From assembly GCA_947561585.1 (NCBI GenBank), contig CANNZV010001179.1, forward strand, positions 124,001 to 188,000: a stretch of DNA of 64,000 bases. The letters run 5' to 3'. Every line of letters starts with the position of its first letter. Within the stretch, counting starts at the first letter, position 1. Positions 14,216 to 49,857 of the stretch are shown piece by piece. The translations under genes and the position numbers were made by a program. Under the pieces are notes generated by a model. That model saw only the letters and a program-made list of their open reading frames with translations. It had not been told where the DNA came from and did no database searches. Source of the stretch: Caprella mutica (taxonomy: Eukaryota; Arthropoda; Malacostraca; Amphipoda; Caprellidae).

Positions 14216-14217
14216 TA

Positions 14218-18158: not shown

Positions 18159-19797
18159 CCCAGGCAGCATAACTTTCTTGGGACAAGGTTGTGTCATAGG
18201 GACATGCTTGGGTACTTGGGAGAAAATGTTGTCCCAACAAAGGGACATCACAGTTAAACCAATATTGTTTTCCAGTCATGTCCCAATGGTATCCCGATAT
18301 TTTCTCCAATTCTTGTTCAAATTCAAACGCCCCTCAATATACATATTTTTTATGCTATATCAGATATAAACTGTAAAAATTGTACCTTCACAGACCCCTA
18401 CCAAAATCAGCCTACCGGAAAATTAATACCGAAAACTAAGAATTTCAACAACAAATGGTATTCTTGAAAAACGTCATAAAATTACAACTTTTACCTATAT
18501 GAGTTAAAATATTGAAATCGGTGGCGCACCTAAAGCACAAATTTACCCCTAGCTAGGGTCAAGCAGATAAATTACGGCACACTCTAACAACAGAAACATC
18601 ATAGCTTCAGAACACACGTTAAAAATTTTAATTTGAACAATTATAGCATGCACTGCGCATCTTTTGATAACTATGCAACATTTCAATGTAATTTCGGTTC
18701 ACAATGTTTTAGAGACTCACTTGAAAGGGCCGCAATTAAAAATTAAAGAGCCGCAATTTACTTATGTGACCCTACTCTGCTCAGGTGGATCTATCACTGA
18801 GGTTACAGAAAAGGCCTGCATCTCTCCAGTTTCTTTGGACTCTGGATTTTATGAATTATTCCTGCGTTTGAATTATAAGTATGTATTCTTTTATTCGGAA
18901 GATTATTTTGAGAAGTGTCAGTTATTTTGATCAAGATAGCTGTTATAATAGTTGTTAACTTGTATACAATACTACTATGAATGAATCAAATTTTGAGCAA
19001 CTGTTTGTTTTACTAATTTTAATTTTTAAACCTTCAATAACTCTATATGAAGAACCGACTGTCTGTAAATATGAGAGAGCATCGGTCTTAACAAGAAAGT
19101 ATTTCCTCTGATTTTATAGCTAGTTCTAAACACAGAGTGACACTTCTTTCCATTTAGTAATTGCAGAATAGCTTATAATTGATTTTTTTTTCAAACAATT
19201 AACATAATAATGTCTTTTGCAAGATGAATTATTAAGAAATTAAGCAGTTTAATTATTAGGGAAATGACTCCATTCACGGAATGTCTAATCTGCATTCATG
19301 AACAATATCACTGACGGTGCATTGTAGTAAACTCTTTTCTAGGAGCCACTTTCCTGTCTGATATCTTCTTTTAGTCCCTTGTCTACATTTTCCTTTTGAC
19401 GTCAGCTATGTAGCCTTTAGTTCACTGGGTATGGTCAAGAGCCCAACCTTGACCGGAGGGGCTCTTGACCTACACCCTTAGTTAGAGGCAGAGGTTAAGC
19501 TCCTATTAAAAAATAAATGATTTTTTTAGGACAACCTTGTGATTAGTATTAGTATTACTCATCATTAGGACATCATTGTCCTAATGTTGTCCCAACAATA
19601 GTGGGTTTGGGATAATATTGGGACAGTAATGTAAATATGTTCCAACATTGGGAACTTTTCTTGTACTAATCTTGGGTCCCAACATTGGCACAACAATTAA
19701 AAAAAACAAGGTTGTCCCAATCATGCGTCCCAATGTAGTCCCAACTATGTCTTGTAGTCAAGTCCCAATGTTGTCCCAAGGAAATTTGCTGCCTGGG
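18159..19797. mobile_element. Word-armed element E5, ~1.64 kb
   Basis: The termini CCCAGGCAGC and its inverse enclose arms rich in the words ttgggacaa and tcccaat: left arm about 18159-18310, right arm about 19510-19797. The interior at about 19240-19440, read on the minus strand, aligns with the core of the elements at 30702 and 48841 (ctgacgtcaaaagg, then caaggga, then aagtggctc). No open frame survives and no clear target duplication was found. Four of the five word-armed elements share this core, although their arm words differ. Confidence 0.7.
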
Positions 19798-20515
19798 AAG
19801 TACTCCACCGCCTCACTGATTTAGTGGGATATAAACCTTGTGTGAACGAGTCGTTACTGGTCAGGCCGGAGTCACCTTGCTGGGAATAGGTTTGAAGGGT
19901 GGGATTTATTACATATGGGCCCACGTGATAGCACTCTGAACAGAGTGATCTCTCCTTCAGAGCGTCCCATATATATAATTATAAGAAAAATGATAACATA
20001 ACTGACAAAACAAGTAAGATGTTATGAAATGAAAATTCACACTTATTCATTTGTTTAAAGATTGAGTAATGGGTATAGGAATTTTTTTGTTCGATGTTTT
20101 CAATATTGTTGGTTTACGTTCTAAACCTATTCTTTTAAATAAGAACGAATATCTCTTTTATAGTAAATCTCTTATGAGTAAATCTTTTAACTAATAGAAG
20201 ATCACATGGTCTTTCTTGTTTATTAGCAAAAGTACATTAAATAATGTTAAAACAGCTAATTATCAGAGGGTTGTACGTTAGAGAGATTGATCGCGACTTG
20301 CCGTGTATTAATTATTCAGAGATGTTAGCACCGAGTGCCCCCTGGAGGCGAGGCTTGATATCATTCAAATTACTCCCCTGAGTTTATAATGTAGTTTGCT
20401 CTGTACTGCACTTAATGCATTGCAGCTAATTCGGTAATTGTATTTGCAGGTATTAGTGAGAAGAATGCGTGCTATCTTCAGGGATGAGAGTCAAGAGAAA
20501 TATTATGCCTTATAA
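19798..20515. other. Spacer, nothing recognised
   Basis: Slightly higher GC than average. No exon, RNA gene or repeat unit supported. Confidence 0.45.
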
Positions 20516-20665
20516 TGATGATAATGATAATATTTATTGAGAAAAAAAAAGTATACAAATATACATTTAACTCTAACCCCTACATAAGAAAAAAAAACCT
20601 TTTTGGCAAAATACATTAAAAACATGATAAAACATTAAAAACATAATTATAGTATAGATCTATAT

Positions 20666-21028
20666 TTATAAAACAAAGAGATATAAAATACAATCATGCT
20701 TACAAAGACACAGGAACAAACAAGAATGCAAAATTAAATGCACCTGTAATCCTCTACATAGAATTTCCTCAGATCCCCTTATACAACGAAAGTGTATCTG
20801 CAGATTTAATATAATCAGGCAAGTTGTTAAATTAAAGTATACCAGCACAATGAGGCGAACGCCTTGTCAGTTGCAGTCTCCTCCTTGAAGGCACAAAATC
20901 AGATTTATGTCTGGTATCATACATAAGTATGCTTACTAGTGGATAATGTGCATTTCTTTTTGAAAATTAATATATTTAAAAGATAATCGTGGATATCATG
21001 AATTTTAAGATTATTACTCAGTATGAAT
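20666..21028 (-). pseudogene. LINE2 C-terminal coding tail, displaced 9.1 kb
   Basis: Minus-strand translation starting at the target duplication continues NPLFI with LSNNLKIHDIHDYLLNILIF. Later come YDTRHKSDFV-, RRSPHCAGIL- and LPDYIKSADTLS-like stretches in shifting frames, the usual tail of these LINE proteins. This shows that the segments left of 21029 and right of 30137 were once contiguous. Confidence 0.8.
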
Positions 21029-21601: not shown

Positions 21602-23681
21602 GGCCCTTTCACACGAGTAGTTTTCTCATACCGCTGTAAAACAAAAGCTGCATGATGAAAACACCCTAGCTTTCACACACAGCGTTTATTTCTAGTCAGA
21701 TCAGAGCCTGTGCGACTGTTGGCAAGTTATAACATGGAAAGTGCGTGACGTTTCATTAATTCTTACTACATCTCGCTATTGTATTACTTCTAATGTTATT
21801 ATTATGTATTTTTTATGATATCTTCTAATGTAAAAATTATATTTTTATGGAGGTAAATATTCATACTAACGTATTGTTTCAAAATACTACTATATAACCC
21901 CATACAAGTCATTTTTATATATTTGGATATGTTCAGATCATGGCGGTCTGTTGAATATTAATTACTCAAGAAAAACAATTCATTTATCTTATAGAACTAA
22001 GCATATTACTATAAACTATTTCAATTAATAACAACAGGGTGTCCCAAAGAAACCGATACCCAAATTTCAAAGGCTGTAATTCAAAAACTATTGAACTTAC
22101 AAAAAAATGGAAAATCACATTTTGTTTCTCAATATTTTTTCTTTCTCTCTACAAAAAAATCAGATGAATCTAAATATTTAACCGTTTTCTTGTAGCTGTA
22201 TTTTTAGTGACCGATACCAAAAACCTGCTTTCAGTGAAACACTTATTTCACAGTTCGAATTGTTAAAGAAGCAGTTACAGAAAATTTGCAAATTACTGCA
22301 ATAAAAAGTGGATTAGACGTTACTAAATCTACATTCAACAGATTTGTAACCTTAGTTTTGAAGTGACATCCTTACAAGATGTACGAACGAAAATAAACAC
22401 CTTGATATCGTTCTTCCTCGGCAGCTGAATTTTGCTCATTGTTTTTAGCAAAGAAATGTCCGGTTTGTGGACGATAATGTGGTTGGTGATGAGACCACTT
22501 TTCATTTGAATGGTAAAATAAATTGTCATAACGTTAACACATTTGCACCGAAGAACCAACCTCCTTCTTTCAATTTTGACGTAAGAATTTCGTGAGAGAA
22601 AGTCTGTGTATGGATTGGACTAGGTAGCAATGGCCGAATTGGCCGTATCGTCTGTCCTTATATTTACAAAAATAATTTAAATGGAGATAGATACCTTGAT
22701 CTAATAAATGATAGAATCGTTCCAAGAATTAGATAAATACATGGAAACAGAATCAATCGAGCCTGGTTGGTTCAAGACGGATTAAGAACTGTTGCTGGAA
22801 AGAAACACTAAATTAGCTATTTGGCTATAGCCCACCAGATCGCCTGAAACGATGAATAGGAGGAACAGTTTCATTTTTTTTTTCGGTTGCATATTAATAA
22901 AGCCCTTTTAATGTTATAATACCATTTTTTAATAAATTTTTTTAACAAACTGTTGAAGGTTATTAAAATAATGGTTCTAATAACATAATATTTGAAGTTA
23001 AACCAAAAGTGCGCAAACAGGTTTTTGATATCGATCACTAAAAATACTGTGTAGATAAAACGGTTGAATATATTTATCTAAAATTTTGTAACGATATGGA
23101 ATAAATGTTGATAAACAAAATGAGATATTCAAATTTTTTGTAAGTTCAATAGTTTTTGAAATAAAGCCATTGAAATTTGGGTATCGTTTTTTTTTGGGGG
23201 AAACTCTGTATCTTTTTCAAATATAAGCTAGGTAAATTCTTTTACCAGATAACAAATATTCAAATTTGAATATAAGTAAGAGAGATAAATATACCTAACG
23301 TCGAAAAGTGAGTGATTTATTCAAATTATAAAATAACCATCTAAATTAATCATTCAGTGGATTATATCTATCTTTCTCTAGACTTCTCAAATCCATGTGA
23401 AATTGGAAAGTTTACATTATTTGTCTGTGTTAATCTAGTTAGCGGCATGATGTTATATGTCTAGTTTGAAAGACTACATTGAACTAAAACATCGGCATGG
23501 AGTTTATACTGAGTTTTTAGAAATCACACGCTGGACATCAGGTATAAAATTTATACCCTGCTTCAGAAATGCCACGTGTGAATAGAAGTATTTGTTTTGT
23601 ATGTCCACTAAAATTTGATGTATTCTTCATGCAGCTTTTGTTTAATAGTGGAATGAGAAAACTATTCGTGTGAAAGGGGCC
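21602..23681. mobile_element. PIF/Harbinger-like element, 2080 bp, TSD TTA
   Basis: The ends GGCCC(C)TTTCACACGA(G/A)TAG form inverted repeats of more than 50 bp (shared inner words gttttctcat and aacaaaagctgcatga). TTA lies at 21599-21601 and 23682-23684. The paralogous mariner copy B reads continuously through the equivalent site (cccctcagttg), giving an independent empty-site comparison. No transposase is seen. The interior is largely taken up by another mariner (22034-23208). Three-base TWA targets are typical of PIF/Harbinger. Confidence 0.8.
22034..23208 (+). mobile_element. Mariner-like copy D nested in the PIF element
   Basis: Inverted ends of ~65 bp begin cagggtgtcccaaag on the left and cagagtttccc on the right; both contain cgatacccaaatttcaa and aaaaactattgaacttac. 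TA follows the right end; the left base pair is AA. The transposase relic on the plus strand (about 22486-22790) shows DETTFHLNG, VWIGLGSNGRIG and LVQDG. These resemble the mariner catalytic region, but the frame is riddled with stops. Confidence 0.7.
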
Positions 23682-23689
23682 TTAGTTGT

Positions 23690-24666: not shown

Positions 24667-24852
24667 CTAATTGGCTTCTCTACCGTAATGGTTTGCTCTA
24701 CCCTAATAACGTGCTACTCGCTGATGCTTTGTTCTGTGCTGTGTGTTATAAACTATTTACTTTTTTTGTCGTGTTGTCTTTGATACAATTATTGTTATCT
24801 AAACTACTATCTAATTACAAATTTACATGTAGGATCATATATTGAACAATAT

Positions 24853-25437: not shown

Positions 25438-27825
25438 ACTTAATGAATGACAGTAATTGTTTGAATTTTGCAAATACAATGTTTTTAAATTATTATACAC
25501 CACTTATTACAAAGCCAACGAGAGTTACTGATGACAGTTTCACGCTTATTGATCATTTATTTTCAAATACTCTTCATAATCATACCTCTGGAATCATCCC
25601 CCGTGCCCTATCTGATCATTATCTGGTTTTTGCTGTGTATAGAGACCTGTTTAAGAATGTAGTCGGCTCATCTGGCCAAATTAGGTTTAGAGTACATAAC
25701 AAAGCATCTCTACGGAACCTTTACAATAGTTTAAATACTTTTGATTTCACATCTGTTGTACAGAGTGAGGATGTTGATCAAGGTATAGAAATGTTAGACC
25801 GGATTATAATGACTCAATACAATGATCACTGTCCTATTCTTAAAAAAACTGTATCATACAAAAACTCGATAAAGCCTTGGATTGATGTTGAGCTTAGGAG
25901 TAAAATTAAGAAGCGTCATAACTATTTATTGTTGTTAAGATGTGGTAAGATGGACAGACAGGCTTTTTAATAGGTATAGAAATATGGTTACGGGAGAAAT
26001 CAGAAGGAAGAAGTTTAACTATTATGAGGTATTGCTTACTAGTTTTGGTGGGGATATGAAGAAAACGTGGTCCTTGGTCAATGATATCCTCGGGCGGAAT
26101 AGAGTGCTGGACCAGGCTAAAGGTATAAGACTGCGAGATGAAAATATGTTAATTACTGATAGCCTGTCGGTTGCTAATGAATTTAACAAGTTTTTTCGTT
26201 CCATTGGTGAACAAATTAATAATTCCTTTCAACCTAGTGATAGCGTTTATCCTATCACAACTTCAAATTTTGTTAACTCTTTTTTCTTCTCACCCGTGAA
26301 TTATAATGATGTCTACATAACAATCATGTCAATGAAATATAAATCTTGTTGTACTGATAAACTTCCTACGTTTGTGCTTAAATATTTAGGAAATCTGTTG
26401 TCACCATTACTTTCTCAACTAATAAATAAATCTTTATCTCATGGTATTTTTCCAAAGGCATTGAGGAGGGCTCAAGTTGTTCCTATTTATAAGGGAGGGA
26501 ATGCTGAAGTAGCTGGTAATTACAGGCCTATTTCTATTCTGTCCGACTTTTCTAAGATTTATGAAAAATTAGTTCATCGACAGTTGGTCAAATACTTAGA
26601 TTTGCATGATATTCTGTATGCTGACCAGTTTGGTTTCCGTAAAAATCGCAGCACATCTCAGGCAGTTCTCTCTTTTTTGCAAGGTGTGTACGATGCTCTG
26701 GACAAAGGTGATTTGTATTTTTCAATGTTTTTGGATTTCCGTAAGGCCTTTGTTTCAGTTTCGCACACTATCCTATTAAATAAACTCAACTCTTATGGTA
26801 TAAGGGGCATTCCTCAGTCATGGTTTCGCTCCTACTTGTCCTCTCGAAGTCAATGTGTTGTTGTAAATAATGTATCCTCAGGGGAGCGACAGGTGAACTG
26901 CGGAGTGCCCCAAGGGAGTATCCTTGGCCCACTTTTATTTTTAATATTCATCAATGATTTTCCATTATGTTCCAGGTTTTTTAAATTCACACTTTTTGCA
27001 GACGACTCCACCATTTCATGTAACATTCCTAGGGACCAATTACTAAATTTTCACGGTATAATTAATGCAGAACTTAGTATTGTTAATGATTGGCTCGAAA
27101 ATAATAAAATTATGTTAAACACTGATAAAACCAAATATGTAGTATTTTCCTACAGAAAGTCTTATAGATTGTCCTTTGTCAAAATATGTGATAATGAGAT
27201 TGAGTGTGTTAAATCTGTTAAATTTTTGGGGCTTGTTTTAGATAATAATCTTAGATTTGAGGTACATATAAACTGTACTACAGTTGAAATTTCTAAATCA
27301 GTAGGTATTCTCTCAAAAATTAGTTCATTCTTACCACGTAATATTTTAATTATGTTATATTATGCTCTTGTCCACCCTCATTTCTTATATCTCATAGAAG
27401 TATGGTTCAATTCTCCGGTTAATGTTAGGAATAGAATGGTCACACTGCACAAAAAGACTGTTAGAATCCTTACTTGTAGCCATTATCTAGCTCATTCTTC
27501 GCCTCTTTACAGAAATCTTGGTCTACTTGATCTATTAAATCTTTTTAAATTTAGAATTTGTGTATATATGTACAAATCATTAACTATTCCAGATTATAGT
27601 CCTTTTTTAATAGATTTTTTTAATACTCATACAAATCAGCATGTACATTTGACAAGAAATAGTTCCAATATAACCTTACCGAGATATAACAAATCCAAAT
27701 CGCAATCTTGTATAATTTATGTAGCATCTAGTCACTGGAATAGCATCAACACTGTTTTTAAGAATCTCAATTCCTTGAATAAATTTAAGTTTCAATATAA
27801 AAAACATTTACTAAATTCCCAATAG
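25395..27825 (+). pseudogene. LINE1 ORF2: endonuclease C-terminus plus reverse transcriptase
   Basis: The first frame (about 25395-25970) carries ISGDFNCDLLN, PLITKPTRVTDDS, LIDHLFSN and SDHYLVF, the C-terminal half of an APE endonuclease. A frameshift near 25945-25970 moves the frame to 25942-27825 (627 codons). That frame holds the fingers (AQVVPIYKGG, NYRPISILSDFSKIYEK), DQFGFRKNRSTSQA, motif [30 protein letters not shown], the FADDST box and a long C-terminal domain. The second conserved Asp after FRKAF is replaced by Val. The reverse transcriptase frame is otherwise open, so this copy is younger than LINE2. Confidence 0.9.
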
Positions 27826-29988: not shown

Positions 29989-30145
29989 TTAAAGCATGTT
30001 CAGAGCAATAAAAAATACTCAAATAATTGACATTTCTTAAATTTTGAGGATTAATCCGTATATTTTTATTAAAACATCAGACCTCAAGGGGGGGGGGCAT
30101 CTGCCCCCAAATGCCCCCCTCCTTGTATACGCGCCTGGTATGAAT

Positions 30146-30693
30146 AGGGGATTGGTATGTGATAAATGATCGGTATTATAAATGACTCTAAGTAGCTTCT
30201 TCTGGAGCAAAAGCAAGGGTCGCAAATGACAAGGATTCGTTCCACCCCAAATTAAGTTACAATAAAGCAAATATGGAAGAGCAAAGCTATTATACAACTT
30301 GGTCAAACAATTTAAAGGAACACAGTCTTTTATCTTCCTAATTATACCTACAGATTTTGAAATTTTATTACATATATTTGAAATATGGTTATCGAATTTG
30401 AGCTCAACATCTAAATGAACACCCACAATTTTACAATTAGATATAATATTAATATTGGAATCGTTAAGAAATAGACTATTAATATTATCTGGTATACTCC
30501 TGTTTGTAAAGATATTGGCATTGGTTTTGATGGCATTAACAGATAACCTATTACACGCAGCCCACTCACCAAACGCCGCCAATTCTGTATTGGCTGTTGC
30601 AATGTGTTGATGTGGACACGAATTGTTGAATAACAAAGTTGTATCATCAGCAAACATCACACACGAAAACATTTCAGAAATACCAGGCATGTT
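30146..30693 (-). pseudogene. LINE2 reverse transcriptase catalytic box and C-terminus
   Basis: Begins with NMPGISEM, directly continuing the frame interrupted by the element at 30702. It carries the FADDTTLLF catalytic box (near 30643-30655), the VGVHLD and HISNICNKISK segments, and the LLQKKLLRVIYN block. It stops at NPLFI at the target duplication of the 9.1-kb element. The last residues of the apparent open frame (GAYTRRGAFGG onward) belong to that element, not to the LINE. Confidence 0.9.
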
Positions 30694-30701
30694 ATTTATA
30701 T

Positions 30702-31759
30702 GGTTCTAGGACAGTTCGCCGCCGGACAATTCGCCGCCGGACAATTCACCGTGAGGACAATTCACCGTGAGGACAATTCACCGTGAGGACAATTCGCCGT
30801 GAGGACAACTCGCTGCTTGGACAACTCGACGCCAGGACAACTCGCCGCGTGATTTATGTTTTGCCAGCGTATACATCATTTACATATATTTATAAATGTT
30901 TTAAATTTGAACAATGATTTGTTTCTATACGCTCAAGACTGACGTAAAACAGTAGTTGACAAATTTCATTACTTCAATTAATTAGTTTCTTTTGATATAT
31001 CAGTTAGAATATTTCAAGCAGCTAAAAATATTTGAACTATTAATATAAATTTAGAAGCATTTAATGTCTGCTTCGAAACGAAAGGCTTTTTAGTTGACGT
31101 CAAAAGGTAATAAAATACAAGGGACAGGAAGAAGAAGTCAGAAAGTAAAGTGACTCTTTGAACAAAGGCACCAACCACCAGTCTGTGACAATGCTCATGG
31201 ATGCAGAAAAGCTTCTTAGTGGATGCAATCACTTACCATGGAATGATATGAAAATGAACACAAGTACAGGTGACTGCACTCATGAATAGAAGAGGAAAAT
31301 GAAGAAGTGATAGTAAATATAACTTATTAGCCTACATAGAGACAAAAATCTAAGACTTCGTAGTTAAAGAACCCTCTATTTGCACTGGTATTCTAGTTTT
31401 AAACAAAAGTATTTTTTTTAAATCATTAAACGTTTTAAGAAGACACCCGAACTTGTTTTTATTTCCAATAACAAATTAATTTTAGCAAAATACTTTCAAA
31501 TAGAACGAAGTAAATTTTATTGTTAATTTAGAGCACACATTATGTTTAAACGAGAGTTATAAAAACATTATATTTACCTTTTGAAATGGAAAAGAAAATA
31601 TTTTCAAATACTTTAATAACAATAATAATTAATTTACAATACGCAGCTTATATTTAAATTATTTATTATATATAAATAGTGTATACCGCGGTAAAACATA
31701 TATCACACGGCGAGTTGTTTTGGCGGCGAATTGTCCGGCGGCGAGTTGTCCGGTCACCC
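30702..31759. mobile_element. Word-armed element E1, 1058 bp, TSD ATTTATAT
   Basis: Inserted in LINE2 with the perfect 8-bp duplication ATTTATAT (30694-30701, 31760-31767). Left end GGTTCTAGGACAG, right end (read inward) GGGTGACCGGACAACTCG. The left arm has about ten phrases of the form ggacaattcgccg(cc/tga); the right arm has three inverse phrases. The core at about 31090-31340 aligns with the elements at 36118, 48841 (inverse) and 18159 (inverse). A decayed plus-strand frame is recognisable in the core (SDSLNKGTNHQS, MDAEKLLSGCNH), preceded by an in-frame TAA. Product unknown. Confidence 0.9.
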
Positions 31760-31767
31760 ATTTATAT

Positions 31768-32101: not shown

Positions 32102-32104
32102 TTA

Positions 32105-33026
32105 AGCCCCGTTTACATTGAGGCTCTTTTGCACACTCTGAGTGTTGAAACAAGGGGCAAACGCGCCTTTGAGGGGCAAAACAGCGGGCAACTTGAGGCT
32201 CACTTAAACATTCACCCTGGCCATTCTTTTCGACACTCTGAGTGACACTCACTGTGGCTCAGTCAGTCCACCAGGGGGAGGTTGTAAACATCGAAGCTAC
32301 TGCAAAATGACTGACAACGAGTAGAGCTACTGTTGAACAGCTAATTGAATTATATAGGACTCACGAATTCCTTATTATTATTAACATTTATTATTATCCC
32401 TCCTTATAATGAAAAGCATTGTGTTTTTATATATGTATAAATCCATCACGCTCAAGAATTTTATTGTATAAAACTCCTGATTTCTTTCAATTTTTCTCCA
32501 TTTAGTCAGATTTTCAGATTTTCGGTGTTTTGCAGCCTTTTTGGTTCCTCTTCATGTTAAATTTTTCTGAAAAAATAAAATATTCCGAAAATTCATTAAA
32601 TTAAAATTCAATTTCCATTAAAACCCCGTTTTTTTAACGGGATAGTACAATAGTTATTAATATCAGGAAGAGATGGAGAAGAAGTAAAAAATGAAATTGA
32701 AACTATACGGAACCAGCACCGCAGGGAGCGCAATAAAGTCAACGAATCGAAAAAATCTGATATAATCTATGAAACAAATGAAATTTATGTATCATCGCTT
32801 TGGTGCTATAATTGCTTCATTTCAAAATGTTACACTTAAGCTCTGTTCCAAGTTTAACAGCACTTCTCGCCATCGAATCTGAATACCAACTAAGAACTCT
32901 CGCACCGTGTCAATTTGCCCGCCAAACGCTTTTCAAATGTGAACAGCCAAGACTCTTTTTGAGCTTGCACTTGCCTGTTGCTCGTGGATGTGAGCTTCCA
33001 ATGTGAGTGTCAATGTAAATGGGGCT
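32105..33026. mobile_element. PIF/Harbinger-like element with MADF remains, 922 bp, TSD TTA
   Basis: Ends AGCCCCGTTTACATTGA and inverse (AGCCCCATTTACATTGA), with TTA at 32102-32104 and 33027-33029. Removing the element and one TTA restores the LINE2 codons ...FERSNLIPESQ.... Subterminal words gaggctc, cactctgagtg and gtgagtgtcaatg recur near both ends. The interior holds pieces of a MADF-domain gene; PIF/Harbinger elements commonly encode such a DNA-binding second protein. Confidence 0.85.
32307..32850 (+). pseudogene. MADF-domain (Myb/SANT-like) gene remnant inside the PIF element
   Basis: Two pieces are recognisable on the plus strand. ATVEQLIELYRTHEFL (about 32326-32373) resembles the first helix of a MADF domain. 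After a likely intron (acceptor aatatcag at about 32657-32664) comes DGEEVKNEIETIRNQHRRER, then NKVNESKKS and the VSSLWCYNCF end (32672-32820), resembling the later helices and terminal LWY motif. An ATG at 32307 is out of frame and soon meets a stop. The domain would bind DNA and assist the transposase. This copy is broken. Confidence 0.65.
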
Positions 33027-33029
33027 TTA

Positions 33030-33605
33030 GACCTCTCAAAGAAATTTATTAGTCTGTCAAACATGCAGCGTTCATACAACTTATTCATATCTGGCAGTAA
33101 TGAAATTGGTCTATAATTATCCACATGTAGATGAGAACCTCCTTTGTGGATTGGTACAATTCTAGCACATTTCAAAGATTCAGGGAAAATACTAACATTG
33201 AATGATTCGTTAATCAAGGAAGAAATTGGTAAGGAGAAAATGTGTTTTGCTAACTTAAGCAACTTAACTGGGACAGAATCAATACCCACTGAACAACTCT
33301 TCAAGCCACCCATAGCACCCATAATCTCATTCTCAGTTACAAGCGACAAAAATATAGAGTCTAAGTTTCTGGTTCGAATAAAATCATAAGGAGATCTACC
33401 AGAAATGGCGGATTTGATAGTCTAAGTAACTGGCAATATTTGAAAAATATTGATTAAATTCTTCAGCAATTAATGAAGTATTAGTTGTTTCAACATTATT
33501 AACAATTATTCTCCTAATAGACTCCCCCCTCGCATGGCCCATCAGATTTCTGATCAATGACCATGTCTTTCTCAAATTAAGTCTGTTTACCTCAAAAGAA
33601 TTCAA
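33030..33605 (-). pseudogene. LINE2 linker and N-terminal reverse transcriptase
   Basis: Minus-strand pieces 33396-33605 (linker with RKTWSLIRNLMG) and 33030-33349 (fingers: SLINESFNVSIFPESLK, ARIVPIHKGG, NYRPISLLPDMNKLYER). They are separated by a frame break. The frame reaches FFERS, exactly where the PIF-like element at 32105-33026 is inserted, and resumes as LIPESQYGF on its other side. Confidence 0.85.
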
Positions 33606-35335: not shown

Positions 35336-35340
35336 GGTAT

Positions 35341-36117
35341 ATACATCATAGTAGGACAGAGAGGTGTAGAGACGAAGCATAGGCAATGCATCCAAATATG
35401 TTAAAAAGATTTACAGTGAAAGTCCTGTCGTGAATCGCAGCAAAGCTTATTGTGTACCTCAGTATACATAAGATTACTGCGAGTTTTGCCAATTCGAAAC
35501 ATGTGCAAAACACGATACATTTTTCAATATATGTGATATAACTTTCTCTTATTCCATGCAATTTCTTATATTGATTAAATTTTATAATTGCGGGAAAAAT
35601 TCCTGTTTTTAATTTGCTGCAAACCTCATGAAAGTAAATGTTGGTTTAAGAATGCTCCTTATTATTCCTAATTTGTATTCATATAATATACTCTTACATA
35701 ATATTTTTAGGTTTTTGAATGAGGGAAACTTATAGTAAAAGAAAGATATTCATTTCTGATATTAATTCTAAGCAAAAATTTAAATTTCAAATATCTCTCT
35801 ACCACTTCGATCATGGACTGACTTCGTGGTGGAACGACTTCGCAGCGTTGGAGTTACTCTTAAAATCCTCGTTTTATATTTAAAAACTCGTTTTCCATTT
35901 AAAAAACTCGTTCTCTATTTAAAAACTCGTTTTCTATTGTCTGTAGCCCTATTTTATCATGAAGAAAAACATTTTATTTTGTCCTTTTCTACTATATTTC
36001 AAATAGGTTATAGCCCATCCCTTTAAAACACATATACACTACAGAAGTATTCCCATTTAAAAAGAAACTCTTAGATTAATGTTCTCAGTTTTGTAGCAAA
36101 AAGTATTCAAATCAGGT
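35341..36117. other. AT-rich spacer with a small 22-bp repeat
   Basis: Bases about 35868-35940 carry four degenerate copies of aaaactcgttttctattta. Nothing else recognised. Confidence 0.6.
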
Positions 36118-36676
36118 GGCTCTAGTATAACTTGCCGCCTGGAAATTTGCCGCCAGACAATTGACCGTACGGACAACTCGCCGCCAGGACATATTGCCAT
36201 CATGAGAACTCGTCCCGTTATTTAAATATGTTTTACCGGCGTATACACTATTTACATAAACTATATTTTAATAAATTTAAACAAGGATTTATTTCTATAG
36301 GCCTAAAACTGACGTAAAACAGTAGTTGACCGATTTCTTCATTCAATATATTTGTTTCTTTGGTTGTCATTTTTTCTGTTAGAATATTTCAGGTCGCAAA
36401 AATAGTAATTAAATACAAGTTAAATGGTAATTAAATAAAAGTTACTGGATGAAGCAGTCAGAAAGGAAAGTGACTCCTTGAACAAATGCAAGCTCGAGGA
36501 AGCAGAAAAGCTATTCAGTGAATGCCGTTACTCAATAACAAAGGAACTATACGAAGATAGTAATTAACACCGGTGGCTTTATCCACGATTAAAAGAGAAA
36601 AATGAAGAGGTGATAGTAAATGTAACCTATTATTTTGCACTGACGTACTAGTCTTAAACTAAAATATTTTTTAAAA
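36118..36676. mobile_element. Word-armed element E2, truncated, abutting the 32-bp array
   Basis: Starts ggctctagtataacttgccgcc, a decayed version of the E1 terminus, with four or five phrases of the form cgccgccaggacaa. The core (36230-36650) aligns with E1 over its length (ctgacgtaaaacagtagttgac, tgactccttgaacaaa, gaagaggtgatagtaaatg). A plus-strand stretch reads EAVRKESDSLNKCKLEEAEK, then LFSECRYS and later EKNEEVIVNVT. It loses its right arm at the start of the 32-bp minisatellite. Confidence 0.75.
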
Positions 36677-36947
36677 AGTCACTGTGATGATGTACTATCA
36701 GAGAAAAGAGTCACTGTGATGATGTACTATCAGAGGAAAGAGTCACTGTGATGATGTACTATCAGAGAAAAGAGTCACTGTGATGATGTAATATCTGAGA
36801 AAAGAGTCACTGTGATTATGTACTATCAGAGAAAAGAGTCACTGTGATGATGTACTATCAGAGAGAAGAGTCACTGTGATGATGTATTATCAGAGAAAAG
36901 AGTCACTGTGATGATGTAATATCTGAGAAAAGAGTCACTGTGATGAT

Positions 36948-37126
36948 CAGGGTTGGGACAATATGCTCTAAAAACTATATATCCCAAAAATATTATAGAC
37001 GTAGAGAATTAAAGAGTATTGAATGGTTCTACACCAGCGGTATATAGTATTCGATACCATTTCATTTCGTTCCGTCTATGATAATTTCGGGATCTATAGT
37101 TCTTAGAGCATATTGTCTCAGCCCTA
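36948..37126. mobile_element. hAT-like MITE, 179 bp, TSD GTGATGAT
   Basis: Flanked by GTGATGAT at 36940-36947 and 37127-37134. Terminal inverted repeats of ~54 bp begin CAGGGTTGGGACAATATGCT on the left and TAGGGCTGAGACAATATGCT on the right. Noncoding. The CAGGG end and 8-bp target fit hAT; because the target lies in a tandem array, the duplication is formally ambiguous with array sequence. Confidence 0.85.
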
Positions 37127-37235
37127 GTGATGATGTACTATCAGAGAAAAGTGTCACTGTGATGATGTAATATTTGAGAAAAGAGTCACTGTGATGATGT
37201 ACTATCAGAGAAAAGAGTCACTGTAATGATGTACT

Positions 37236-37570
37236 TGTTGAAATTTTAGTTTAATTGTATTACACACTCTTTATATGTTTAATGTCAACTTCCTGTGAGA
37301 CTAGCTCAGCTATATTAATTACCTATTGTTTAACAAACAATGTATTACTTTTATGAGAAACGGACTTAAGGTAAGTCCATTACAATTTCCGGTGAGTGTT
37401 AAATATCACCACAGGTCAATTCTTTAGCCAGTCGGTTCTTTACATTACTCAGTGAGAGATGTGTTCCACTCATCTCTCCAATAGACTTCTATATGTATAA
37501 CATATTACTCTTTAAATAAACTCTATGTCTTAACGTTGTTAACCCACTGTAATTTAACCTAATTCTAACA
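37236..37570 (+). repeat. Copia 5' LTR
   Basis: Starts TGTTGAAATTTTAG and ends CTAACA, giving TG...CA ends. Contains the tctttaaataaactctatg stretch that could serve as promoter or polyadenylation region. Compared with the 3' LTR it lacks three bases near 37372 (aaggtaagtcc versus aaggtttaaagtcc). Confidence 0.95.
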
Positions 37571-37585
37571 GGTTATGGGCCCAGT
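37571..37585 (+). promoter_or_regulatory. Primer binding site for a half initiator-Met tRNA
   Basis: GGTTATGGGCCCAG directly follows the 5' LTR. It is the exact complement of the metazoan initiator Met tRNA anticodon arm (CTGGGCCCATAACC, approximately positions 27-40), not of its 3' CCA end. Drosophila copia is known to prime from a 5' half-tRNA cut in this arm, so the same mechanism is inferred here. Confidence 0.85.
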
Positions 37586-38069
37586 GAACGATAAGAGTTT
37601 ATAAATCAAATTATGTTTAAACAATTTAGAAGTTTATTATAGTAATCAATAAAAACGAATTGCAGTGAAAAAATGTTAAACTAAATTAAACATATACGCA
37701 CGAACGTTTGTGTAAGCATATCATGTTAACGAGCTATTGAGGTCGATTATACTGACTGCTCTAGCGAAATGTACTTGTTTTTATAGTATAATTATTTATT
37801 ATTTGTGCGGAAGAAGTGTCAAGAGAGGTCACAAATTACCTTTAAATCTGTGACCTTATCCTTTGGTAAACAGTCTTTCAACAAAAGGTTCTTGCGAACT
37901 AAGACTTGTGTTGCTGTTCCAATTGAATATTAATAATTATATTCAGTGAAGTTATTCTTATGAATTAGAATAATTTTAAAACATCTATTCAGTTAAACAG
38001 TAAATCAATTTAACTGCTTTGTTTGTTTATGTTTGTTAAGTATTGAATGATAATAAATACTTTGAAAAC

Positions 38070-38729
38070 ATGTCTTCAAATAAGTTACCGGGGATTGTTC
38101 CCATAGACGGAAATAATTACCCCACATGGAGGGTACAAATGAAGATGTATCTCTTAAGAGAGAAACTGATGGATTTTGCTGATGGATCTAAATCAGTTCC
38201 AATAGATTCCGCTTCAACTGAGGTTAAAGCTGCCTATGCTAATAACAAGAATAAAGCTCTGGCAGATATAGTACTATCTATTTCACCGGATCAATTGTAC
38301 TTAGTTGGACAACCCACGGATCCACACGCTGTCTGGACCACCCTTCAAGAAACGTTTCAGAAAAACACGTGGGCGAACAAATTTCGTCTGAAGAAGAAGC
38401 TTTACAACTTAAAATTGAAGTCTCCCGAACTACTCAACTCCCATTTGAAAGAACTAACTGAAGTTTTTCAAGAGCTTGCCTTGTTAAATCAAGTGAACAG
38501 TGAAGAGGATAAAGTTATTTGTCTCCTATCATCACTACCAGAGCCGTTTGAAGTGCTTGTTACCGCACTTGAAGCACAGACAGACATCCCTATCTGGATT
38601 ACCTTAGCTGACACACTCCGGAGAGAAGCTGAAAAGTTGAGTATTAAATCCAATGATGCTTTGGCATTATCAAATACTCAGATTGTTGCTGCAGTAAATA
38701 AACAGTCAATCAAGTGCCACTTTTGTTAA
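38070..38729 (+). pseudogene. Copia gag, ending in a stop inside the zinc knuckle
   Basis: The ATG at 38070 begins MSSNKLPGIVPIDGNN; the frame is open upstream to 38043 without an ATG. The sequence shows the usual Copia Gag features: YPTWRVQMKMYL, VWTTLQETFQ, KLYNLKLKS and LLSSLPEPFEVLV (UBN2/Gag-copia domain). Gag would form the capsid. The C-terminal CCHC knuckle begins CHFC and is then cut by TAA at 38727-38729, with KLGHVKKDC following in the same frame, so the finger is split exactly between its second Cys and its His. Confidence 0.9.
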
Positions 38730-40388
38730 AAATTGGGACACGTGAAGAAAGACTGCTTTAAATTTAAACGGTATTCTCAAACTAACAGAACTCAAAACCA
38801 GCCAAATGGTGTAAATGTAAGTCATATAGAACTTAATCACACAATGTATGCTAATGATATCGCTCTTTGTAACAAATATGCCGACAGTAATATTTGGATA
38901 ATAGATTCAGGCTCTTCATCACACATGAGTGGTGATAAAAATTTATGTAAAGATTTTGCAAATATTAGCAAACCTATCAATGTTAAAGTAGGTAATGGAG
39001 ATGTTTTGCAAGCTATTTCACTAGGAAATGTTTCTGTTATTGTGAATATACCAGGTGGTGGAAGTAGAAAATGTACAATAAATGATGTACTTTATGTGCC
39101 GAATCTAGCTTTTAATCTACTAACAGTGTCAAAAATGACAAGTAATAATAAATCTATTATTTTTGAAAATGATAAATGTAAAATATTGAACGAAAATAAA
39201 GAGTTAATTGCTGAGGCTCACTGTGTTGGTCAACTCTATTATCTAAATACTTTAGTAAATAAAGCTGCAGTAACTGTTGATCAAAATAAAGTAAACCTTC
39301 TATGGCATAGAAGGCTCGGTCATATAGGTAATGATAACTTGACTAAAATGATCCGAACTAAATCAGTAAATGGTCTGGATAGTAAATTAAAAGCTATAGA
39401 AGGTCTGTGTGAACACTGCTGTAATGGGAAAATGCATAAAATACCTTTTTCTACAAGCATTAAGAAAAATTGTAAACCTCTTGATTTAATCCACACAGAT
39501 GTCTGTGGGAAAATTACTCCCACTTCCAGGGGTAATAATTCATATTTTCTGACCTTTATTGATCATGCTACTAGATACTCCTGGATATATGTTATTGCCC
39601 ATAAGAGTGATGTGTTTCAGAAGTTTTTGGAATGGAAAGCTATGGTTGAAAATATTTACGAAAGGAAAATTAAAACCTTGCAGTCAGATAATGGAGGAGA
39701 ATATACCTCAAATAAGTTTGAATTATATTTACGAAATGAAGGTATAATTCACCAGAAATCTATTCCTAAAACTCCTGAACAAAATGGGTTAGCTGAAAGA
39801 TTTAATAGAACTATTATGGAAAAAGTTAGATGTATGTTATCTGATTCAGGAATTGATAAGGAATTCTGGGGTGAAGCACTATATACTGCAAATTATCTAA
39901 ATAATAGATGCATTAATTCATTTTTAGTAAATAAAACTCCATATGAAGCTTTAAATCTTAGAAAACCTAAAGTTAGTCATGTAAAAGTTTTTGGATGCAC
40001 TGGGTATGCGCATATTTCTCGAGATGAACGATCAAAATTAGAAAATAAAGCTACCAAATGTCTGTTTCTTGGCTATGGCACAGTTACTAAAGGGTATAAG
40101 ATGTATGATGTTGAATCTAAAAGAATCTTCTTTTCCAGGAATGTAACCTTTGATGAATCAGTTTCATCTAAGATTGAGAACCCTCAACTGATTGAGACTC
40201 CTACCTCTCCACTGGTGTTCCCTTCAGAAGATTCAGAACCTGCTGGGCCTGAGAACCAAACTCCTGACAATAATCCTCAAATAATCCTCCCTGATGCGCA
40301 ACCTGTACAAGCTATCAGTCCTGATGAGGATCTTAGACGATCGTCTAGAATTCGTCGAGCTCCTATTAGATACGGTAGTTGGGATTAA
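38730..40388 (+). pseudogene. Copia protease and integrase section of the polyprotein
   Basis: In the same frame as gag, with no own ATG at the start. Protease: IIDSGSSSHMSG (about 38899-38934) with the aspartic DSG triad. Integrase: zinc-binding HHCC region (LLWHRRLGHIGNDN ... CEHCCNGK), then the catalytic core with D in LIHTDVCGK, D in LQSDNGGEY and E in GLAERFNRT, all present. A GKTP-like GAG_pre/integrase tail and a Ser/Pro-rich linker (PTSPLVFPSEDSE) follow. The linker leads to RRSSRIRRAP, the usual junction before reverse transcriptase. Stops at 40386 and 40404 interrupt here. Confidence 0.93.
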
Positions 40389-40406
40389 AGCCATGATCAA
40401 TTTTAG

Positions 40407-41951
40407 GTGGAGGGTTTATTAGTAAATGGGAATATCAATATCGAGCCTAGGTCGGTATCTGAGGCTCTTAATAGCGGTTCTGAATCCTCTAAATGGAAAC
40501 ATGCCATGGAGAGGGAATTAAATGCTTTTGAGAAACATAAAGTTTTTGAACTCGTAAAACCTACCTCAGACTTAAACATAATTAAATCTAAATTGGTGTT
40601 TAAAAGGAAAAAGGGATCTGATGGTAGAGTGGTTTCATATAAAGCTAGATTAGTCGCTCAGGGTTTTTTACAGAGACCTGGAATCGACTATGATGAAATT
40701 TTTGCTCCTGTAGTGAGATTTGAATCGGTGCGAACCATGTTATCTTTAGCAGCTAAACAAAAATTATTCGTACATCACTTGGATGTCAATTCTGTTTTTT
40801 TGAATGGGGATCTTAAAGAAAATGTTTATATTAGACAGCCTCCTGGCTATGCTATTCCAGGAGAAGAAGATTTAAAACAATCACCCAAATGTTGGAATGA
40901 TGCTTTGGATGCATATCTTAAATCCTTTGGATTTATTCAGTCCTCTTGTGACTCATGTATATATGTTAAAGTAATCAATAACTCTCCATGCTTCATTTCT
41001 GTGTATGTAGATGATATTATTGTAGCATGTAAGAACTATGATGACCTGACTAAAATCAAGACTGATTTAAGTGCTAAATTTGAGATGAAAGACTTAGGAA
41101 AATTATCCTATTCCTTAGGCATAAAAGTCGTACAAGACGAAAATAAAATAGCATTAAATCAATCTTCATTTGTCAACGAGTTATTAGATAGATTTGAATT
41201 CAATAATTGTAAACCAGTATTAACTCCTGCTGATGTTAATTCTCATTTGGAACCAACTACTGATGATTGTGAACTAGTAGATAAAACTAAATATCAGTCA
41301 GCTGTAGGTGCCTTACTGTATCTATCTACGAAAACTAGACCGGACATAACTTATGCAGTTGGAAATGTCTCTAAATTTTGTTCCAATCCAAACACTAAGC
41401 ACTGGTCTGCAATTAAGAGAATATTTAGATACCTAAAGGGCACACCTGATCTTGGCATTACATATGGTAATGAAGATTCTGAGTTGATAGGTTATTCTGA
41501 TGCCGACTGGGCAGGTAACAGAGTTGATAGGAAAAGTACTTCTGGCCAATGCTTTATGTTAAATAATTCCATTATTTCTTGGCGCTCTGTGAAACAGTCA
41601 TGTGTTGCTTTATCAACGGCTGAAGCTGAATATGTTTCCCTCTCTGGTGCCTCCCAAGAAGCTGTATTTCTAAATAAATTACTATTAGATCTTAAAGTAC
41701 CTAATAAGAATCCTATAGTTTTGTTTGAGGATAATCAGTCAGCTATTTGTATTGCTAAAAATGCTAAAAATCATCCTAGATCGAAACACATTGATATTAA
41801 ATTTCATTACATTAGAGATCTTGTTGCTTCAAACACAATTAAACTTGTGTATTGCCCCAGTGAAACTATGCTTGCTGACATATTCACTAAACCGTTGCCT
41901 ACTGATAGATTTACCAAATTAGTTGAATTATTAGGCATGAAAAATATATAA
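40407..41951 (+). pseudogene. Copia reverse transcriptase and RNase H section
   Basis: In frame with the preceding part after two stops. Reverse transcriptase: FKRKKGSDGRVVSYKARLVA, PVVRFESVRTML, motif A HHLDVNSVFLNGDL, then YIRQPPGYAI. The conserved segment normally lying between the GEED- and LKQSPK-like blocks (about ten residues containing the KSLYG-type motif) is absent near 40870-40880, an in-frame deletion. YVDD is at 41004-41015. RNase H: YSDADWAG, RKSTSGQCFML, STAEAEYVSLS, EDNQSAICIAKN and RSKHIDIKFHYIR. The frame ends at TAA 41949-41951, just before the polypurine tract. Confidence 0.95.
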
Positions 41952-41959
41952 TGTCGTGT

Positions 41960-41968
41960 GAGGAGGAG
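41960..41968 (+). promoter_or_regulatory. Copia polypurine tract
   Basis: GAGGAGGAG immediately precedes the 3' LTR. This is the expected position for the plus-strand DNA primer. Confidence 0.8.
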
Positions 41969-42306
41969 TGATGAAATTTTAGTTTAATTGTATTACACAC
42001 TCTTTATATGTTTAATGTCAACTTCATGTGAGACTAGCTCTGCTATATTAATTACCTATTGTTTAACAAACAATGTATTACTTTTATGAGAAACGGACTT
42101 AAGGTTTAAAGTCCATTACAATTTCCGGTGAGTGTTGAATATCACCACAGGTCAATTCTTTAGCCAGTCAGTTCTTTACATTACTCAGTGAGAGATGTGT
42201 TCCACTCATATCTCCAATAGACTTCTATATGTATAACATATTACTCTTTAAATAAACTCTATGTCTTAACGTTGTTAACCCACTGTAATTTAACCTAATT
42301 CTAACA
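41969..42306 (+). repeat. Copia 3' LTR
   Basis: Starts TGATGAAATTTTAG and ends CTAACA, followed by the target duplication GTACT at 42307-42311. It is 98% identical to the 5' LTR by eye. Confidence 0.95.
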
Positions 42307-43312
42307 GTACTATCAGAGGAAAGAGTCACTGTTATGATGTACTATCAGAGAAAAGAGCCACTGTTATGATGTTCTATCAGAGTAAAGAGTCACTGTGACA
42401 AATGTACTATCAGAGAAAAGAGCCACTGTTATGATGTACTATCAGAGAAAAGAGTCGCTGTGATGATGTACTATCAGACAAAAGAGTCACAGTGATGATG
42501 TACTATCAGAGAAAAGACTCACTGTGATGATGTACTATCAGAGAAAAGAGTCACTGTGATGATGTGCTATCAGAGAAAAAAATCACTGTGATGATGTACT
42601 ATCAGAGGGAAGAGTCACTGTGATGATGTAATATCTGAGAAAAGAGTCACAGTGATGATGTACTATCAGAGAAAAGACTCACTGTGATGTTGTACTATCA
42701 GAGGAAAGAGTCACTGTGATGATGTACTATCAGAGAAAAGAGTCACTGTGATGATGTGCTATCAGAGAAAAGAATCACTGTGATGATGTACTATCAGAGG
42801 GAAGAGTCACTGTGATGATGTAATATCTGAGAAAAGAGTCACTGTGATGATGTACTATCAGAGAAAAGAGCCACTGTTATGATGTACTATCAGAGAAAAG
42901 AGTCGCTGTGATGATGTACTATCAGACAAAAGAGTCATTGTGATGATGTACTATCAGAAAAAAGAGTCACTGTGATGATGTACTATCAGAAAAAAGAGTC
43001 ACTGTGATGATGTACTATCAGAGAAAAGAGTCACTGTGATGATGTACTATCAGAGAAAAGAGTCACTGAGATGATGTACTATCAGAGAAAAGAGTCACTG
43101 TGATGATGTACTATCAGAGAAAAGAGTCACTGTGATGATGTACTATCAGAGAAAAGAGTCACTGTGATGATGTACTATCAGAGAAAAGAGTCACTGTGAT
43201 GATTTACTATCAGAGAAAAGAGTCACTGTGATGATGCCACTAATTTCACAAATAACGGGTTTTCAAATTTTTTATCATCAAATCTTATAATGTTGTCATC
43301 GTAAACCTTGAC

Positions 43313-43612: not shown

Positions 43613-43620
43613 ATCTTGAC

Positions 43621-47404: not shown

Positions 47405-48389
47405 CTTGAATTTAAGCTTGTATGTTTTTGTTAAATCACTTGGTTCCAAGCCTCCCATATTGTAGATGCATAATGATTCTATTCAAAAATGTCTTTGACA
47501 ACATGCACATTATCATCGGTGGTAACAGTCTAGTGAGTTGTGCCAAGCTAATACCGCTAAAGGTCCCATGTCTTGCAAACTGATCGCTCTATCGTATAAA
47601 ATTTATTCACATAGAGTTGATGTTTCTTATAATAATATCATAGGAAATTTTTTAACGATGAATGAATAGTTCTGAGTTATTTCATAGCTCAGAACTATTC
47701 ATTTACTTTTCTCTTCGTTCAACAGTACATTGAATTTGATTTAAATTCGACCATATCGCTTTGCAATGAATGTGAAGCGTTTGAGCACGTCATCCATTTG
47801 GCAGTTTCCCCGAAAGACCATGTAAATGCGAATTATGCAATCCGATATATACGTCATTGAAAATTCAGTAAGTTTTTCAAAATAAATATTACAAAATTCA
47901 TTAAAAACCAAGGGGGCTTCATTTTAAACTTAAAGTGGTCACACAATTAGGACATCTTCTACCGGTAAGGTTGAAATCGTGATATTACATAATTATGGAC
48001 GCCCCAGCGTTAATAAAGTAATCATGCAGTTTAAATTGACAGAAATTGTCAATCAAATTATTCTATTATAACTCATTTATTTTCTTACAAACGTTTCGTA
48101 GTGTTGTATGTTTCAAAAATAAAGATTATTTATGTATTCAAGGTACCAGTAGCCTCGTGGTTTTGGTGGAGTGAAGAGTTAGTGTGTCTGTTTTTTTCTC
48201 CGGTAACTTAACACCGAGAGAAGAAGAAAATATCCTCTCGCAAATAAATGAATAAACATTAAAATGCTATTAACTTACTAAACAATAAACTGTATTCCCA
48301 GAAGTACAACGCAATTCTTATCAAAGCTAGCGTGCTCTCCTGTTGACAATTTGACGATAAGCTCAATCTCTACTACTATAATTCATTTG
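47405..48389. other. Spacer containing a perfect 16-bp hairpin
   Basis: Bases 47661-47676 (aatgaatagttctgag) are the exact inverse of 47688-47703, with an 11-base loop. Otherwise nothing is recognised. A degraded frame upstream of the candidate exon (47410-47600, minus) gives only short protein-like stretches. Confidence 0.6.
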
Positions 48390-48705
48390 CGAAACAGAAA
48401 AAGAGAGACAACGTAGGTGAAAGAGAGCGAAAGAAATTAAAGATAGACGATGATTATAAAAGAGACACGATGTACGTGAAAGAGAGATGATGTAGCAAAA
48501 AGGAGACGATGCAAGTGAAAGAGAGACGATGTAAGTGAAAGAGAGACGATGGAAATGAATGTAAGACGATGGAAGTGAAAGAGACACGATGTAATTTAAT
48601 GAGATACAATGTAAGTTAAAGAGAGGCAATAACAAGTGAAAGAGAGAATATGGAAGAAAAAATGCATGAGACAATGGAAGTGAAAGAGAGATGAAGTGAA
48701 TGAAA
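48390..48705. repeat. Degenerate ~20-bp repeat (gtgaaagagagacgatgtaa)
   Basis: About 15 diverged units of a purine-rich 20-bp phrase, with changes such as gagacacgatg and gagatacaatg. The Ser/Leu-rich minus-strand open frame at 48363-48716 is a by-product. Confidence 0.85.
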
Positions 48706-48840
48706 AAATAAGTCACTTGTATCAGAATGCAAGTAAACAGACACCCTTAGAAATAGGCAACAATTGCCCGTTATTATGCCGGACATGCAGCTCTCTACAA
48801 CAGCCTCTTCAACTTATATCAGTTATATGTCTGATATAGA

Positions 48841-49857
48841 AGCCCAGAAGAAAAATGGCTACAAGGAAAAATGCCCACAAAGAAAAAAGCCCACAGGTAC
48901 AATACCTACAGGAAAAAAGCCCACAACTACATAATTTGAAATACAGAAAAAAATGAAGGTAATTTAATTAATGACATAAGTTTACAAAGGCACGAATATT
49001 CAATTAATTTTCCATGTATTGCACATTTTCTCTTATTTTGAAAGTATTCATCGCTAAGATTAATTTTATACTTGTTGAAATTAAATTTTATAGTATATAA
49101 ATTTGAAAATCATCTGTAGTTTTCATTTTACCATTTCAATTATATTTTGTTCTCAGCTGCTCTATCCTGAAGCTGTTTGAGATGAATGTTAGAGTAGGTG
49201 GTAGCGTCCCTAATTGTGGTCCGAACTGTTGTAATTTAGATTATGTCTTATCTTCTTTCATATTTACCATATTTATAATTTTTAACGCCACTTAGAGTTT
49301 TTGAGGATAGCGCTAGGTTTATGATCTTTAACTACGAGGTCTTCAATTTTGGTTTTAGGTAGGCTCGCTAAACTTCATTTACTATCACCTCTTCATTTTT
49401 CTCTTCCATCCGTAAGTGCAACCACTGGTGCTTGTGCCCCTTTTCGTCAGATTCCTTGTTAAATGACTGCATTCACGGAGTAGTTTTTCTGCATCCATTG
49501 GCTTTTCATCGACGGTGGTTGGTGACTTTGTTCATGGAGCTACTTTTCTTTCTGACTAATTCTTCCAGTCCTTTTTTTAAATATATTTTTGTTAATAAAT
49601 ATAGTCAAAATGGATGAAAACTGATGTTAAACCCTATACTAAATTAAATTAAAAAATATCTGTATTTTAGAATATTTGCCGTTAACTTATGCCCGTATTT
49701 GAAGCACTTTTATGTTTTCCTGTATTATAAATATTAGGTAGTTGTGTTTTTTTCCTGTGGGCTTTATTCCTTGTGGGCATTTTCCCCTGTTGGCGTTTAA
49801 TATTTGTGGGCAATTTTCTTTTTTGAGCATTTTTCCTGTTGGCGTTTTTCCTGTTAC
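48841..49857. mobile_element. Word-armed element E4, ~1.02 kb
   Basis: The left arm (48841-48945) repeats aggaaaaatgcccaca-type phrases; the right arm (about 49745-49857) carries the inverse phrases (ttcctgtgggc, ttttcctgttggcg). The core at about 49330-49600, read on the minus strand, aligns closely with E1 and E2 (agtcagaaag, ccaaccacc, atggatgcagaaaa, gaagaggtgatagtaaatg). The arm words are unrelated to those of E1. No clear target duplication; ends approximate to a few bases. Confidence 0.8.

Follow-up and report, generated by a model that had tools for sequence, protein, structure and literature searches.

How does one interior come to lie between terminal arms that are unrelated to one another? 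The question is raised by a group of repeated elements in a 64,000-nt stretch of Caprella mutica DNA (contig CANNZV010001179.1), hereafter the window, whose own coordinates are used throughout. The group comprises E1 (18159-19797, minus strand), E2 (30702-31759, plus), E3 (36117-36672, plus), E4 (48841-49857, minus) and a short relative, S (5240-5533, minus). E1 to E4 (4/4) share a homologous core of ~160-270 bp, which is carried within three arm classes, only E2 and E3 having one in common. The elements are read here, with a probability of roughly one half, as decayed non-autonomous foldback DNA transposons in which the core is a separate module that was exchanged or captured among three unrelated arm pairs.

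One core within three arm classes

The core occupies 31104-31371 of E2 and 36424-36644 of E3 on the plus strand, and lies in reverse orientation at 49323-49587 of E4 and 19259-19422 of E1, the limits in E3 and E4 being set by blastn and profile and E1 holding the first part only. By blastn, E2 31119-31370 matches E4 49574-49325 (minus) at 77.1% over 253 bp (E=1.5e-47), E2 matches E3 over arm plus core (E=2e-39), E3 matches E4 at 68.4% over 212 bp (E=8e-16), and E1 19289-19422 (minus) matches E2 at 71.9% over 135 bp (E=4e-13) and E4 at 69% over 127 bp (E=5e-5). Dinucleotide shuffles never reach the observed score (0/200 for each of the six core pairs; lowest z 5.9, E1-E3), and leave-one-out nhmmer profiles recover the omitted core in 4/4 cases, with E values from 5e-14 (E1) to 1e-46 (E2). 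A sequence-only reading of this locus had proposed the common core and named loss of the similarity on alignment as grounds for giving it up; the similarity persists at the nucleotide level, so that objection falls and the core is borne out. The edges of the core vary by pair: similarity starts at 31077 for E1-E2 and at about 31104 for E2-E4, and E1 ends near 31235 while E4 reaches 31371. S gave no blastn match to the cores. The core profile also gives a weak hit in A-rich sequence at 55295-55366 (E=0.098; 0.006 and 0.013 in two of the four leave-one-out profiles), which lies within an inverted-repeat region (54139-54257/55592-55710) and is probably due to chance.

E2 is a complete non-autonomous foldback element of 1058 bp, nested in a minus-strand long interspersed nuclear element (LINE), with terminal inverted repeats (TIRs) and an exact 8-bp target-site duplication (TSD), ATTTATAT, at 30694-30701 on the left and 31760-31767 on the right. 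Its left end consists of the motif GGTTCTA followed by nine GGACA units (GGACAATTCGCCGCC/GTGA, 15-16 bp each; 30709-30849, plus), and its right arm (31707-31759, minus) has three units that follow another end motif (GGGTGACC in the inward direction). When the flanks of E2 are joined with one TSD copy, the reading frame of a reverse transcriptase-like (LINE) host is restored; the reverse transcriptase identity is our reading of its motifs, and Pfam gave no match for the flanking open reading frame (ORF) pieces at 30040-30705 and 32936-33421. The predicted DNA fold of E2 pairs both arms at -146 kcal/mol, a value given without a shuffle control at that length.

E3 belongs to the arm class of E2, with which it shares the inner arms (z 24; Kimura two-parameter distance, K2P, 0.260). 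These two are evidently the elements that the sequence-only reading had labelled E1 and E2 and described by the phrase ggacaattcgccgcc. The match of E3 to E2 ends at 36672 and a 32-bp satellite starts at 36673, so E3 has no right end; the E2 right-arm pattern gave 12 matches, all in E2 or the left arm of E3, and no right half was seen by eye after 43236. The left edge of the satellite (36672/36673) is thus the interior of a foldback element.

S, of 294 bp, has a left array of AAACACATTCGCCGA, its left end starting within that array, and a right end, GGGTTCTAGG, in the unit phase of E2, and is flanked by the exact duplication ATATTATG (5232-5239 and 5534-5541; 9 bases with the adjoining C). The end motif GGTTCTAGGAC occurs five times in the window, when 8.06 matches are expected, and is not above chance alone; the end motif shared by E2 and S therefore rests on its exact terminal position. 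The earlier claim that the terminus of S is like that of the present E2 stands in that the motif sits exactly at both ends. Exact 8-mers arise at 12/20000 random end pairs in the window, or at 149/20000 with 3-base play at each end, and the two perfect 8-bp duplications reported from the letters are both confirmed.

As in E2, the arms of S have unequal numbers of units. The innermost units of S agree between its arms (GACACTCTC/GACACTGTCGCCGAA) and its outer left units are homogenised to a different variant; in E2, three neighbouring units of the left array are an identical variant, GGACAATTCACCGTGA, confined to that arm. Local amplification within an arm would account for these patterns, and has been described for the repeats of Galileo (PMC3573991, the portion consulted).

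The arms of E4, of the AGGAAAAATGCCCACA type, are also arrays of 15-16-bp units, and its TIRs (48848-49001 and 49670-49820) are 72.8% alike. E1 has CCCAGGCAGCA ends and scattered words of the TTGGGACAA kind, irregular and on either strand, with no clean array; a hairpin, GGTCAAGAGCCC ... GGGCTCTTGACC, lies at 19433-19472 between its core and right arm. The claim that one core is carried by arms of differing phrases accordingly holds for the three classes, and less well for the words of E1. Lone word clusters, also claimed, are found at 11932-12021 (plus; GGGACATTTGGCCGAA/GGTCGAA) and 56624-56695 (minus; AGACATTTCGTTGAA), where no second arm or TSD was seen.

A word like GGACATTTCGCCGAA joins the arrays of E2, S, 11932 and 56624. 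In a word-shuffle test, four of the six pairs among them give p<0.05, as do 2/49 other pairs. A pooled word, GACATTTCGCCGAA, has 15 window matches at up to three mismatches versus 2.95 expected, 14 of them in these arrays, although it was built from the very arrays scored, after they had been seen, and the units of one array do not count as independent. Together these comparisons suggest a moderately supported kinship of the four arrays. The E2 words are unrelated to those of E4 (p=0.58) and E1 (p=0.90). The inner parts of the arms, which hold no repeats, are likewise unmatched between E2 and E4 (left z -0.1, 100/200 shuffles as good; right z 1.0, 29/200; z 0.3 and 1.1 in two cross controls), and no E2-E4 homology was detected outside the core. 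Exact-pattern scans of viral contigs for E2-type arms, core and pooled word, and of a genome contig collection for the pooled word, found nothing in these sets, which hold few or no animal sequences. Searches of papers, figures aside, for six arm strings as literal text matched 35 papers; the 20 listed had only the short end strings, and none deals with transposons. A further six strings occurred in no paper, in text that leaves out figures, so the words may nonetheless have been published.

Likeness to known foldback transposons

The sequence-only reading knew of no description that matched these elements; for the arms this does not hold, as their anatomy is shared by Mutator-like elements (MULEs) of root-knot nematodes and Aedes in the parts of the reports consulted here. 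Tm1, a Mutator/foldback family of Meloidogyne (root-knot nematodes), has the end motifs A1 (CGGTTAA) and A2 (CCTACCC) with B (GGA), one to nine units of 13-15 bp (mostly 14 bp) and duplications of 8-10 bp (PMC3169594). In both Tm1 and E2 the two 7-bp end motifs are unequal, lie beyond the inverted repeat and are followed by GGA (PMC3169594). The ends are similar and not identical (CGGTTAA-GGA/TCC-CCTACCC in Tm1, GGTTCTA-GGA/TCC-GGTCACCC in E2, to which the likeness is confined); 5/20000 random position pairs match the Tm1 ends as well as E2 does, in a test that was made after the likeness had been noticed and against Tm1 alone. Unit numbers are unequal at the two ends in both (one to nine in Tm1; nine and three units of 15-16 bp in E2), and the 8-bp duplications of E2 and S fall within the Tm1 range, E1 and E4 having none (PMC3169594). 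Most Tm1 copies are non-coding and resemble miniature inverted-repeat transposable elements (MITEs), and some are without an end motif, as is S on its left; S has one Tm1-like end only (PMC3169594).

The Tm1 unit consensus (CGATTCAGTATCCGC) and the E2 unit (CAATTCGCCGCCGGA) are different sequences. Tm1 has a purine-rich (GA-rich) motif, D, at the inner end of its TIR, whereas none is visible after the E2 array (30850-30906); Tm1-ML copies are also without it (PMC3169594). The sharing of a core among arm classes is not part of the Tm1 description as far as consulted (PMC3169594).

In Aedes, Muta1 has an end motif of 8-10 bp followed by a 12-bp unit repeated nine times with spacers of 3-4 bp, and Muta5 has a 15-bp unit, a long-TIR build termed type 2 foldback (PMC5225508). 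The genome holds 14 MULE families, with non-autonomous copies of heterogeneous interiors and subterminal repeats of 9-15 bp in 10/12 long-TIR families (PMC5225508). By description, the arms of Muta1 and Muta5 are built like those of E2, with duplications of 8-9 bp compared to 8 bp (PMC5225508). The Aedes families combine one arm class with many interiors, whereas here several arm classes hold one interior (PMC5225508). Since Tm1 and Muta1/Muta5 share this arm build in the accounts consulted, E2, E3 and S most likely act like MULE foldbacks.

Other foldback systems are comparable in part. Tetris of Drosophila virilis likewise has outer TIR tandem repeats, a variable middle, duplications of 8-10 bp and, in the account consulted, no autonomous copy, with a repeat unit of 220 bp, unlike the 15-16 bp here (PMC4079207). 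Galileo, a P-superfamily foldback of Drosophila, encodes a transposase whose THAP domain binds repeats in the long TIR (PMC3688188). Its TIR tandem repeats expand independently in each arm, as do the arrays here, and its chimeric copies are attributed to conversion between subfamilies (PMC3573991, PMC3688188, PMC4168063; consulted in part). By these accounts Galileo elements are far larger, use a THAP transposase and have subfamily arms that are homologous, whereas the arm classes here are unrelated; no THAP transposase was found among the window ORFs scanned. The target duplication of Galileo is 7 bp. The hAT superfamily is defined by an 8-bp duplication of the form nTnnnnAn and CAG-like ends; the E2 duplication fits this form, the S duplication does not, and the E2 ends (GGTTCTA/GGGTTCTA) are not CAG-like, so the elements do not fit hAT. 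For the sea-urchin TU elements, Hoffman-Liebermann et al. (1985) reportedly described foldback arms whose outer domain is built of repeats of about 15 bp, together with 8-bp duplications and a modular middle whose segments are found at other genomic sites as well.

Based on these likenesses, E2, E3 and S would form one kind of element, defined by an end motif of 7-8 bp and a run of 15-16-bp units, to which the arrays at 11932 and 56624 probably belong as well. This kind would most likely move by cut-and-paste with a MULE transposase supplied in trans, which would recognise the repeated word and make the 8-bp duplications. The unit runs would grow, shrink and homogenise within each arm, so that subfamilies come to differ in their word. 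The core, in turn, may have reached three unrelated arm pairs by capture or inter-element exchange, for example through interrupted gap repair after excision. The MULE transposase, the word as its binding site and exchange as the route are what we infer here.

Origin of the shared core

The relative ages of core and arms bear on how the core was shared. The K2P distance between the E2 and E4 cores is 0.343 (268 sites), and that between the two arms of an element is 0.223 in E2 (58 sites) and 0.333 in E4 (79 sites). Half of the two arm distances summed is 0.278, an estimate that assumes near-identical arms at insertion and draws on few sites. As this covers most of the core difference, the E2 and E4 cores seem to have been nearly alike when inserted, at a time when the arms were already unrelated. 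The two TIRs of one Tm1 element average 93% identity in the data consulted, so the insertion ages are perhaps somewhat too high (PMC3169594). The E2-E3 core distance (0.331) is similar to that of E2-E4, although E2 and E3 share arms.

A possible, if doubtful, alternative is that related autonomous transposons gave rise by deletion to E1, E2/E3 and E4, with the core as a leftover conserved (coding) patch and arms that diverged beyond recognition before copying. Consistent with this, substitutions are uneven over codon phase in three of the six core pairs (E2-E3 8/18/22, E3-E4 7/14/21, E1-E4 19/6/11; chi-square p about 0.03-0.04 per uneven pair, uncorrected), and because of this an old coding origin of the core may apply. 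The E2-E4 substitutions are even (19/20/20), and in the E3 pairs one phase has the fewest changes, yet the surplus of changes does not fall on third positions in the most open frame of E3. The four-copy consensus has no open frame to speak of (the longest stretch is 43 codons, equalled or exceeded by 455/500 shuffles). Pfam gave no match for three typed core pieces or for the ten ORFs scanned out of the 49 listed of at least 35 aa in E1, E2 and E4, and the suggestion that a core peptide is a transposase or accessory protein found no support in these scans. Overall, the core shows no sign of coding that stands, and the phase evidence is mixed. Rfam gave no match in the window at the gathering score, nor for 31060-31420 at E 0.1.

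A bolder and rather unlikely reading is that a non-coding internal cassette moves between foldback families whose arms are unrelated, perhaps served by different transposases, with the recognition word of each arm drifting through rapid turnover of its array, so that end, word and interior would evolve as three independent modules.

Improbable, too, is the scheme offered by the sequence-only reading, in which a single lineage keeps its core and turns over its arms by replacement of the repeat word. The common word scheme of E2, S, 11932 and 56624 and the local amplification of units in E2 and S agree with it. However, the words and ends of E1 and E4 are unrelated, the unmatched inner arms of E2 and E4 are not explained by word replacement, and S is without a core match. 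Slow arm turnover in a single lineage fits poorly, since the cores seem to have been nearly alike while the whole arms, inner parts included, were already unrecognisable. Turnover of this kind thus suits E2/E3 compared with S, and probably the lone arrays, and does not link the words of E1 and E4 or the inner arms of E2 and E4.

That the core is an independent dispersed repeat (one resembling a short interspersed nuclear element, or another small element) inserted alone into unrelated elements is quite improbable: such a repeat would put one sharp-edged segment into unrelated hosts, whereas the core edges differ among pairs, there is no Rfam match and no window copy lies outside E1-E4 except the weak A-rich match (55366-55295). 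Chance minisatellites next to an ancient common repeat, with no transposons or consistent ends, are a highly improbable explanation, for although minisatellites abound in the window (41 rows) and E1 and E4 are without duplications, inverted arms flank E2 and E4, and the exact duplications of E2 and S and the restored empty site of E2 mostly refute it for E2 and S, while it may still apply to the lone arrays and to E1.

The explanation favoured here is that decayed foldback transposons exchanged or captured the core, and several points weigh against it. All results come from one window. Target duplications are present in only 2/5 elements: E1 has none within 25 bp of its ends, the ends of E4 are uncertain and the sole candidate is an 8-mer with one mismatch, about chance level, and E3 has no right end, so the constant 8-bp target length sought as support is limited to E2 and S. 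Neither E1 nor E4 has Tm1-like ends. No MULE transposase was found by Pfam in the 14/25 window ORFs of at least 110 aa scanned (the other 11 were left out as satellite or simple-repeat reading frames) or in the ten ORFs of E1, E2 and E4 noted above, and the MULE assignment consequently depends on arm anatomy and duplication length. The Tm1 end-match test has the limits already stated, and the uneven codon phase also counts against this explanation. Slight similarity beyond the core is seen in the E1 pairs, with the left inner arms of E2-E1 at z 2.8 (4/200 shuffles as good; right z -0.4, 132/200) and the right inner arms of E4-E1 at z 2.4 (5/200; left z 1.4, 24/200), and may be a remnant of wider homology between E1 and the other elements. 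Informative core sites weakly favour E2+E3 (six, compared to two and one for other groupings), such that core and arm class are not fully independent of each other.

Neighbouring repeats and the shared interior

The window has the repeat content of a eukaryotic genome, including a LINE reverse transcriptase at 25942-27822 and Copia gag and pol at 38040-41951 (Pfam). The Copia element (37236-42306; long terminal repeats at about 37236-37571 and 41971-42306, TSD GTACT) lies in the 32-bp satellite that cuts E3, which without this insertion would span 36673 to 43236. Within the same satellite is a 179-bp inverted-repeat element, CAGGGTTGGGACAATATGCTC...GAGCATATTGTCTCAGCCCTA (36948-37126), flanked by the exact 8-bp duplication GTGATGAT (36940-36947 and 37127-37134), which we take to be a hAT-type MITE. 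The satellite unit recurs on the opposite strand at 51341-52504, where no adjoining core or E-type arm was found. The inverted-repeat pairs 21604-23678 and 22034-23209 are nested (88% over 60 bp, 79% over 200 bp), which points to one transposon within another. At 12933-14217, perfect 30-bp inverted repeats enclose a transposase-like reading frame (13294-13635) that has no Pfam match.

The elements E1 to E4 and S are a known kind of transposon, and their less common feature is the presence of one interior in three arm classes. Interiors that vary between fixed arms are well known in MULE and foldback elements; one interior within several arm classes is, to our knowledge, less often documented. 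If exchange or capture of the core is true, the locus would show that non-autonomous elements swap their interiors between families. In addition, the series of words in E2, S, 11932 and 56624 would provide a small natural experiment on a changing putative transposase-binding array in which the end motif is kept.

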